Shown piece by piece: positions 2,561-5,207 of a DNA stretch of 45,756 bases. The stretch's first letter is position 1, and every line of letters starts with the position of its first letter. The DNA is taken from the NCBI GenBank assembly GCA_021372515.1, contig JAJFUG010000065.1, positions 1 through 45,756 on the forward strand. Direction: 5' to 3'. A program made the position numbers and the translations under genes. Below the pieces are notes generated by a model that was given only the letters and a program-made list of their open reading frames with translations, made no database searches and was not told where the DNA came from. Origin of the DNA: a bacterium. Its GTDB lineage: Bacteria; Gemmatimonadota; Glassbacteria; GWA2-58-10.

Positions 2561-2594
2561 ACAAAAAGCCCGCGACGGCACTCGTCGCGGGCTT
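2561..2594 (-). terminator. Intrinsic terminator of the LolD/radical SAM/LolA operon
   Basis: There is a perfect 12-bp stem (AAGCCCGCGACG and its complement) with a 5-nt loop. On the minus strand it is followed by TTTTTG. It begins about 30 bp after the stop of the LolA-like gene. Confidence 0.85.
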
Positions 2595-2624
2595 CGCAAT
2601 TCTCTATCCGGTTTCGCCGCCGTC

Positions 2625-3332
2625 CTACTGGGTCACTCCGCTGTCCGGGCTGTGCTGGATCACGGTGGTGCCCTCGGGCGCCTTGAACGTGAACCGCGAC
2701 TCGGCCAGCCTGAGGTTCAGACGGTGGTGCGTGTACTCATACACCGAGCGGTCGCCGTTTTTCTGTACGATCTCGGTGCGCACCGGGTACCAGCGTCCCT
2801 CGGGCACGGTGAGCAGCACTTTCTGTATCCCCAGCACCGGGCTGGCGGCCGAGGTGCCCTGGATCGGGGTGAGCCCCAGGGTGACCAGCATCGCGCCGGT
2901 GCTGTCCGCGGCGCGGGACTCCAGGCTCACCTGGAACTGCTCGCGGATACGGGCCGCCGAGCCGCCGAAGCCCACGAACAGTGCGCTCATGTCCTGGGCC
3001 TGCTTGACCGAGAACTCGTGCACCTGCTTCAGGTCGGGATAATGCAGCCAGCCGCGGTTGTGATTGATGATGAGCTGCTGGTGCTCCGGGTTCTGGGTGT
3101 CCAGGATCAGCTTGTCCGGGTTGCGGAAATAGAACTTGCCGCTCGAGACGATGGTCTCATCGAACACGGTCATAATCTTGGTCTGGACGAAATCGGCCTG
3201 TATGTCCTCCAGGCGGGCCGAGCTTTCGGCCATGCGGTCCAGGATCTGGTCCACTTCCGCGCCCGCGGCCCGTGCCGACTGGACCAGGCCCAGCAGGGCT
3301 GTCAGGATTAGCATTGTGATAGTCTTCTTCAT
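2625..3332 (-). CDS. LolA-like periplasmic lipoprotein/lipid carrier
   Basis: This 235-residue protein has a signal peptide (KK, a hydrophobic core, then QSARA, cut near residue 22). The mature N-terminus, ILDRMAESSARLEDIQADFVQ, followed by SGKFYFRNPDKLILD, is the typical opening of the LolA / outer-membrane lipoprotein-sorting fold. That fold is a half-open barrel that shields an acyl chain in the periplasm. The length suits the family. The gene follows the radical SAM gene after 26 bp and is closed by a strong terminator. LolA normally receives lipoproteins from the LolCDE ABC exporter. Here a LolD-like ATPase gene is two genes upstream, but no LolC/E permease gene lies nearby. The cargo could be lipoproteins in general or a product of the neighbouring radical SAM enzyme. 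Confidence 0.85.
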   Translation of the reverse strand: MKKTITMLILTALLGLVQSARAAGAEVDQILDRMAESSARLEDIQADFVQTKIMTVFDETIVSSGKFYFRNPDKLILDTQNPEHQQLIINHNRGWLHYPDLKQVHEFSVKQAQDMSALFVGFGGSAARIREQFQVSLESRAADSTGAMLVTLGLTPIQGTSAASPVLGIQKVLLTVPEGRWYPVRTEIVQKNGDRSVYEYTHHRLNLRLAESRFTFKAPEGTTVIQHSPDSGVTQ

Positions 3333-3358
3333 CTTCCACCCTGTCCTTGTCTTAATCC

Positions 3359-4381
3359 TCAGACTGTCGCTGCCACCAGCGCCGGACTACGCCGCACCGA
3401 ATGCGACGAGAAATACTCTTTCAGCAGGTCTCCCATCGGCTTGTCCAGATAGGAGCGGATCGAAACATAGCAGCCGCCGCAATGGTTGTTGGGCACGAAT
3501 TCCTTGTGTATCTGACGCAAAGAGGTGTACTTGCGCTCGTGCATCGAGCAGGGCTTCAGGAACCCGTCCGGCGTGATCACCAGGAACCGCAGCCCCGCAC
3601 GGCAGGGCAGTATCTCGCCCTTCTCGAAGAACTGGTACGTGCCCTCGATATTGAAATCGGCGTTCTGGATCAGGCCGCAATGGGTTTTCTTGTACTCCTT
3701 CAACTGGTCGAGCTGCCCGCGCAACTGGGCCAGGTCCTCGGGCCTGTCGATGGTGTAGGCGCGCTCGCCGGTGCGCAGCACCGAATAGGCGCTGAACGAG
3801 ATCGACACCCCCCAGCGTTCGGCCACTTTGACCAGGTCCATGATGTGCGGCATGTTCTCGTGGGTGATCGCGCTGTTGAGCACGATATCATCGAAGCCCA
3901 TGCCAGCCAGCTCCGGGATGGTGCGGTCCAGATGCGCAAACAGGCCGTTGATGTGACGCCAGCTGTCGTGACGCTCATCCGGGAAGCAGAGCGAGATCGA
4001 GAGCTGGTTGATCCCGGCCGCGCGCAGCTTGAGGTAGCGCTCACGGTTGAGCAGCCAGCCGTTGGAGACCACGATCAGGTATGGCGACTCGTGGCCCACC
4101 GGCTTGACCGCCCGCAGCACACCCTCCAGGTCATCGCGCAGCAGGGGCTCGCCGCCCGACACTTGGACGATCATCGGCTTCAACGTCTTCATCAGGCGGC
4201 CGTAGTCCTCCGGCCCGATACGCTGCTCGCCCGGGATCAGTCCGCCCATGTTGCAATGGTTGCAGTTGGCGTTGCAGCAGTGGGTCATTTCCAGCGAGAC
4301 CACCGTGGGGTAGCTCAACATGTACCCTGGAATGCCGCGGGTCAGCAGCGCGGCGGTCTGTCTTTTGGTCAGTTTTCTCAT
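3359..4381 (-). CDS. Radical SAM enzyme with SPASM-like cysteine-rich tail
   Basis: This is a 340-residue enzyme. C36-x3-C40-x2-C43 binds the catalytic 4Fe-4S cluster, and GGEP at 76-79 is the S-adenosylmethionine-contacting motif. A strand ISLCFPDERHD and the rest of the partial TIM barrel follow. Near residues 255-305 the cysteines in LPCRAG, KPCSMHER and HCGGCY suggest an auxiliary cluster of the SPASM/twitch kind, and KPCSMHE is the usual reporting segment. Such enzymes modify peptides, cofactors or lipids by radical chemistry. The start codon overlaps the stop of the ABC ATPase gene (ATGA), and a LolA-like gene follows. The substrate is unknown; a HpnH-like lipid role is an alternative. 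No small precursor-peptide gene was seen next to it. Confidence 0.85.
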   Translation of the reverse strand: MRKLTKRQTAALLTRGIPGYMLSYPTVVSLEMTHCCNANCNHCNMGGLIPGEQRIGPEDYGRLMKTLKPMIVQVSGGEPLLRDDLEGVLRAVKPVGHESPYLIVVSNGWLLNRERYLKLRAAGINQLSISLCFPDERHDSWRHINGLFAHLDRTIPELAGMGFDDIVLNSAITHENMPHIMDLVKVAERWGVSISFSAYSVLRTGERAYTIDRPEDLAQLRGQLDQLKEYKKTHCGLIQNADFNIEGTYQFFEKGEILPCRAGLRFLVITPDGFLKPCSMHERKYTSLRQIHKEFVPNNHCGGCYVSIRSYLDKPMGDLLKEYFSSHSVRRSPALVAATV

Positions 4382-5139
4382 GTCAGTTCTTCTCTATCGC
4401 TGATACACCCGTCCACCAGGTGCAGTATCCGGTCACCCTGCTTCGCCACCAGAGGATCGTGGGTGACCATGATGATGGTTTGATTTTCCTCCTGGTGCAG
4501 GCGCTCGAAAATGTCGAGCACGCGCCGGGTGTTCTCGCGGTCCAGAGAGCCTGTGGGCTCATCGGCCAGAAGGATCGCGGGACGGCGCACCAGGGAGCGC
4601 GCAATTGCCACCCGCTGCTGCTCTCCGATCGAAAGCTCGCGCGGGTGGTGGTGCATCTTGTTACCCAGCCCGACCCGGTTCAGCAACTCGCTCGGGTCGG
4701 CGAAACCATCCCGCCCGTTGGCAAACAGGGTCAGCTTGAGCGCAATGGCCACGTTCTCCAGGGCGGTGAGCGTGGGCAGAAGGTTGAAACGCTGGAACAC
4801 GAAACCGATCTTGTCGTGGCGCATACGGGTGACCGCGCTGTCACCGCGTCCGGTCAGCTCCTGCCCATCCAGCCAGATACGTCCCCCCGTGACCGGGGCC
4901 AACCCGCCGATCAGGTAGAGCAGTGTGCTCTTGCCCGAGCCGGAGGGCCCCATCAGGCTGAAAAACTCTCCATACGCCACGCCGAAAGATATGCCTTTCA
5001 ACACCCGGCTGGTTTCACTGCCGATCGTGTAATCTTTGACAATATTTTCAACGACAACGGCTTGTCTGTCCAGGTCTCCGGAAATAAAAAAACCCCCCTC
5101 TACGACACTGAAAGGCTCAGATCGCTTCGTGGCCAACAT
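4378..5139 (-). CDS. ABC transporter ATPase, LolD/MacB type
   Basis: The 253-residue ATPase has every catalytic motif: Walker [10 protein letters not shown] (64-72), Q-loop [17 protein letters not shown], signature LSIGEQQR, Walker [10 protein letters not shown] and switch histidine MVTHD. The LLP-T-TALENV stretch and overall length fit the LolD/MacB/FtsE subfamily, which powers lipoprotein release or envelope export through an FtsX-type permease. No permease gene is adjacent, so the partner must be encoded elsewhere. ATG 5139 gives about 25 residues ahead of the usual family start, and only a weak ribosome site precedes it. A purine-rich AGAGGGGGG lies inside this extension without a standard start codon after it, so the true N-terminus is uncertain. 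It is the first gene of the operon with the radical SAM and LolA-like genes. Confidence 0.87.
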
Positions 5140-5178
5140 GCGGCCCCAAGGCCGGCGAGTATGTTTTACTTAGCCGTT

Positions 5179-5207
5179 AGTATAGTCCAGTACAGGAATT
5201 ATGTCAA
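5179..5207 (-). promoter_or_regulatory. Near-consensus sigma70 promoter for the LolD/radical SAM/LolA operon
   Basis: Read on the minus strand: TTGACA, exactly 17 bp, TATACT. The -35 is perfect and the -10 matches five of six. The predicted start site near 5172 leaves a leader of about 33 nt before ATG 5139. It is among the strongest promoters visible in the window. Confidence 0.8.

Follow-up and report, generated by a model that had tools for sequence, protein, structure and literature searches.

A conserved operon for an ABC ATPase, a radical SAM enzyme and a LolA-like carrier in Glassbacteria: a candidate second Lol-like export branch

The closest described system is the E. coli LolCDE-LolA pathway, which comprises a LolD/MacB-class ATPase, a LolC/E-like permease and a LolA-family carrier. 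LolA-type carriers are known mainly from lipoprotein transport; for a few of their paralogues the partner is a pigment or another lipid. We analysed a window of 45,756 nucleotides (contig JAJFUG010000065.1) from a bacterium of the Glassbacteria, in which genes for an ABC ATPase, a radical SAM enzyme (rSAM) and a LolA-like protein form one operon, hereafter the triplet. The genome of the window encodes an ATPase of this class, a LolA-family protein and, away from the operon, a LolC/E-like candidate permease; unlike the E. coli system, the triplet proteins fall under the equivalog cut-offs, the permease is unlinked, an rSAM is present and there is a separate housekeeping set. In the case of flexirubin LolA2 (NF053544), an additional LolA is tied to a lipidic product other than a lipoprotein. 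The five triplet LolAs found in this study matched this whole model with 74-79 bits, although below the cut-off of 125, and the housekeeping LolAs gave 26-41 bits over part of the model only. MacB/DevC/darobactin-type FtsX exporters have the same ATPase class and the MacB_PCD and FtsX domains of our candidate permease, but the triplet operon contains no membrane-fusion protein or TolC and has a soluble LolA-like carrier instead. With the SPASM/twitch enzymes (BtrN, MoaA, SkfB and BlsE) the triplet rSAM shares the radical SAM core and a CX12GX4C motif followed by CX2C; unlike them, it falls into no sequence family above cut-off and has no full SPASM domain and no RRE. To TIGR04133 (rSAM_w_lipo, named for a neighbouring lipoprotein) it scored 57.7 bits, far under the cut-off of 425.

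The triplet was confirmed to be real, conserved and under one promoter (Table 1). Three genes on a single strand, an ATGA overlap at the ATPase/rSAM junction and a 26-bp gap between the rSAM and LolA-like genes had been given in a preliminary description of this DNA, and all were seen again in the window's open reading frames (ORFs). The near-perfect promoter was also confirmed, and at the place of the terminator there is a terminator-like hairpin. Near-consensus promoters precede the ATPase gene in all five genomes that carry the triplet (TTGAC[AGT]-17-TATA[AC]T in the four sisters), 77-97 nt from the probable ATT or ATC start. The three proteins matched the Pfam families ABC_tran (115.6 bits), Radical_SAM (51.9 bits, cut-off 29.5) and LolA (54.6 bits), all above cut-off, and none reached an NCBIfam equivalog cut-off: the ATPase scored 208.4 against 307.75 bits for LolD, and the LolA-like protein 86.6 against 112 bits for LolA. 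Housekeeping proteins were likewise under these cut-offs (254.4 bits for the LolD on contig C23 of the window genome; 84-102 bits for the LolAs of the sisters).

Table 1. Positions of the triplet features in the window and of related loci in other genomes.
Feature	Position	Strand	Remarks
LolD/MacB-class ABC ATPase	4378..5139	-	ORF from ATG 5139; probable start 5085; ABC_tran Pfam
Radical SAM enzyme, twitch-like	3359..4381	-	CxxxCxHC and C260, C278, C301, C304; Radical_SAM Pfam
LolA-like periplasmic carrier, signal-like N-terminal segment	2625..3332	-	LolA Pfam; paralogue of housekeeping LolA
Sigma-70-type promoter TTGACA-17-TATACT	5179..5207	-	11/12 matches
Intrinsic-terminator-like hairpin	2565..2595	-	13 pairs
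Probable ATPase start, GAGGGGGG	5083..5100	-	Shine-Dalgarno-like run and ATT at 5085
Acidobacteriota operon VTT - lipoprotein - FtsX permease - ATPase - LolA	L208:7971-12366, L209:10800-15170		genes on the same strand
rSAM-VTT loci	L121, L126, L127, L129-L134, L136-L160, L162, L163		

We found the triplet in five of six Glassbacteria-family genomes, belonging to four genera, with identical gene order and 58-72% protein identity across the three genes. The sixth genome (G009), without the triplet, is 88% complete, and with six family genomes only the co-occurrence has little statistical weight. Transglycosylase and inositol-monophosphatase genes flank the triplet in four genomes, and in G007 it lies elsewhere, as a unit. 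Two relatives with the triplet are recorded as Candidatus Glassbacteria. Another (G005; locus L118, JAJRTS010000107.1) was deposited as Gemmatimonadales, but it has the Glassbacteria operon and groups with Glassbacteria, and the name looks wrong. Outside the window genome, rSAM copies with 67-72% identity were confined to four members of its family (the next at most 43% in 200 genomes of the phylum). At all five loci, the window's included, the rSAM gene is preceded by the ATPase gene and followed by the gene for the LolA-like protein. At the 25 further rSAM loci taken from the 200-genome sample, this arrangement was not seen within 1.5 kb. The triplet is not unique to this genome, which the preliminary description had named as a possible objection. 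The test that it had proposed, for LolA- and LolD-like genes next to the rSAM across phyla, did not bear out the exact triplet elsewhere: a single pattern-based scan, which distant cases may escape, covered 84,980 species genomes and gave 48 rSAM loci, and among these only the loci of Glassbacteria had both an ATPase and a LolA beside the rSAM.

The window ATPase has an intact Walker A motif and the signature LSIGEQQR, not LSGGEQQR. This change of Gly to Ile in the ABC signature was present in all five Glassbacteria ATPases (LSIGEQQR or MSIGEQQR); relatives in Acidobacteriota have LSGGEQQR. The Q-loop motif is common to the Glassbacteria and Acidobacteriota ATPases and differs in the window-genome paralogues compared; in ABC transporters the Q-loop region faces the permease. 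Through the sequence comparison, the ATPase gene probably starts at the ATT and not at the ATG of the ORF. ATT or ATC stands where protein conservation begins in five of five genomes, with a Shine-Dalgarno-like GGAG or similar about 5-9 nt before it. In G003 and G001 an in-frame TGA lies six codons upstream, and in G003 no in-frame ATG, GTG or TTG occurs between this TGA and the conserved N-terminus, so that a non-canonical start is likely. A non-canonical start codon is known for infC, and sigR is a further precedent (PMC5472188).

The absence of a permease, stated in the preliminary description, holds for the operon but not for the genome. We found 14 FtsX-domain matches in the window genome. 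Those on contigs C53, C180, C13, C23 and C144/C86 accompany ATPases, C55 has an FtsE-like linkage, and on C204 and C74 duplicated permease genes stand so near the start of the contig that their upstream neighbours lie beyond it. A permease of 364 aa on C201 stands alone, and besides its MacB_PCD and FtsX domains it matched the LolC/E model TIGR02212 with 63 bits over nearly the full length. Its orthologues, 72-77% identical, were found in exactly the five triplet genomes (719-737 bits); this type was absent from G009 and the rest of the 200-genome phylum sample (at most 93 bits). In the clearly readable cases no ATPase adjoins the orthologues, and linkage of this type to an ATPase was never seen in Glassbacteria. 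The missing permease appears, from its distribution, to be this unlinked LolC/E/MacB-like protein. A polyprenyl-synthase-like gene is its neighbour (L063:4384-5478 for the C201 permease, L098-L100), with an ApbE-like gene next in several, and an isoprenoid link is possible. Permease matches in G183 and G198 were rejected as relatives of the system, since they scored only about 66 bits and had neither a LolA nor a close rSAM in their vicinity.

The triplet LolA profile was run against 13 genomes with other rSAM relatives. The two strongest matches came from two members of the Acidobacteriota, the ones with an rSAM that forms the sister group of the Glassbacteria rSAM (support 97/90), and in both genomes the LolA gene ends a linked operon of five genes. 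This operon holds the best non-Glassbacteria matches to the triplet ATPase and to the orphan permease: with the Glassbacteria profiles its ATPases scored 263-267 bits, where the next protein reached no more than 235.5, and its permeases scored 217-219 bits, with no other above 87. The ATPases of Glassbacteria and Acidobacteriota grouped with moderate support (85/78); the LolAs grouped with 95/95 in a midpoint-rooted tree with long branches, and their identity is only 25%. The rSAM is unlinked to the operon, being elsewhere in the chromosome in bin48 (CP070717.1) and on a separate contig in the other genome. MlaE/F/D-like genes and a CDP-alcohol phosphatidyltransferase gene lie on the opposite strand, converging on the operon. 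The lipoprotein-like gene encodes a Cys after a signal-like segment, and its product had no Pfam, NCBIfam or PDB match and no homologue among the loci compared; a LolB/LolA-like fold found no support (hhalign probability 9.7% and 0.8%).

Membership of the radical SAM superfamily was given by the Radical_SAM profile and the invariant C36-C40-C43. Only four auxiliary cysteines are invariant, and neither a full SPASM domain (at least seven C-terminal Cys; CX9-15GX4C, CX2CX5CX3C, C) nor a Pfam SPASM match was found. Of the earlier assignment as radical SAM/SPASM, the first part stands and SPASM in full does not, as the later cysteines are missing. The sequence and the predicted model (pLDDT 84.8) are consistent with one four-cysteine, twitch-like auxiliary site, and the modelled fold resembles SkfB (6efn), BlsE (7vob), CteB, SuiB and MoaA. 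Outside Glassbacteria, a VTT/DedA-type membrane protein is encoded beside the rSAM relative at 36 of 44 loci, often as the immediate neighbour; many of these loci are closely related, but some come from Neomarinimicrobiota, Myxococcota and Zixibacteria. This rSAM-VTT pairing is an undescribed pair. VTT/DedA proteins include undecaprenyl-phosphate flippases (PMC12893004). In Glassbacteria we found only weak VTT matches, adjoining surE/pcm-like genes, and these were not counted in the system.

We estimate at roughly 0.5 the probability that this operon supplies the larger part of a dedicated Lol-like export branch, by which a lipidic or lipid-anchored product, probably modified by the rSAM, is brought to the outer membrane. 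The ATPase would work with the unlinked LolC/E-MacB-like permease, and the two would extract from the inner membrane a cargo that is lipidic or has a lipid anchor; the cargo would be loaded on the LolA-like carrier and then taken to the outer membrane. The rSAM would modify the cargo, or a membrane lipid, by radical chemistry on the cytoplasmic side before export. That ATPase, orphan permease and LolA-like carrier make up one transporter unit is quite likely, and that the rSAM acts on the cargo of this transporter is a tentative proposal. A lipid theme recurs in the VTT/DedA pairing and in the mla-like and phosphatidyltransferase genes near the Acidobacteriota operon. The preliminary description had proposed such a dedicated modify-and-deliver route, and the second conserved Lol-like set, the candidate permease and the linked Acidobacteriota operon speak for it; complex formation, a lipidic cargo, outer-membrane delivery and, above all, the action of the rSAM on the cargo are what we infer.

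Another reading, possible but doubtful, is that the ATPase, the unlinked permease and the LolA-like protein are a second lipoprotein or lipid carrier, and that the rSAM is a passenger of cofactor or metabolite chemistry sharing the promoter only. The unlinked rSAM of Acidobacteriota fits this, and the triplet profile found no LolA match in three Dehalococcoidia genomes with the rSAM, so the rSAM can work without a LolA carrier. The HMM matches of the rSAM (MoaA, AhbD, HpnH) are also generic, all far below cut-off. However, in five genomes the rSAM gene is flanked by those for the ATPase and LolA, and in the window it overlaps the ATPase gene, and both Acidobacteriota with the sister rSAM also have the transport operon.

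It is improbable that the locus is a RiPP-like pathway, in which the rSAM would be a peptide maturase and the transporter would export a modified (lipo)peptide. SkfB, CteB and SuiB are among the best fold matches, and LolD/MacB-class ATPases export darobactin and bacteriocins (the DarD NCBIfam score was 184.6 bits, under cut-off). But the modelled rSAM core starts after a short N-terminal helix, which leaves no room for an RRE, no convincing precursor ORF was found beside the operon, where intergenic ORFs reach at most 70 aa, and the rSAM has only four auxiliary cysteines.

That the triplet is the organism's housekeeping Lol set is very improbable: its LolA is the sole LolA match in the window-genome assembly, but a lysS-lolC/E-lolD locus already contradicts this, and the sisters have a second LolA. 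Every family genome but the window's has a LolA at a fixed FtsK-adjacent locus, most of them with a RimO-like gene close by, and the triplet LolA is 20-29% identical to it. Contig C143 of the window genome runs only a little beyond the stop codon of FtsK and breaks off after ATGAAAAAGAACGGACTGCTGTGGCTGGCC, a stretch that looks like the beginning of a signal peptide; the break falls about 30 nt into the presumed housekeeping lolA. Contig C34 starts inside an alkylation-repair-like gene, which follows lolA in the sisters, and from these contig ends the housekeeping lolA was most likely lost to an assembly gap. The gap cuts this gene despite an estimated completeness of 99.5%. The lysS-lolC/E-lolD locus is on contig C23, with lolC/E at 348.9 bits to TIGR02212. 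The search for a second lolA/lolD set, suggested in the preliminary description, thus led to separate housekeeping loci, and they support the triplet LolA/LolD-like pair as a second, non-housekeeping set. The AlphaFold model of the LolA-like protein was poor (pLDDT 50 from four sequences).

Returning to the dedicated export branch, Glassbacteria inherit the ATPase, the rSAM and the second LolA together, apart from the housekeeping lolC/E-lolD and lolA. This second Lol-like set with an rSAM suggests that they have their own surface-delivery route for a modified lipid-like molecule. We might also speculate, though we hold it rather unlikely, that an undescribed envelope pathway exists in Glassbacteria and some Acidobacteriota, where a private LolC/E-D-A-like set carries an rSAM-modified lipid or lipid-anchored molecule, and that elsewhere a VTT/DedA-type flippase replaces the transporter beside the rSAM. 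In the open-access literature we found no paper on radical SAM enzymes with LolA and LolD, with Glassbacteria or with a VTT domain; among the matches listed for radical SAM with LolA, all were unrelated by title and abstract. A second, conserved Lol-type set with an rSAM of its own would be a genetic handle on the passage of non-protein amphiphiles through the periplasm, and it points to a surface molecule of these uncultured bacteria that is radical-modified and undescribed. The proteins encoded apart in Glassbacteria and together in the Acidobacteriota operon are a concrete set for reconstitution.
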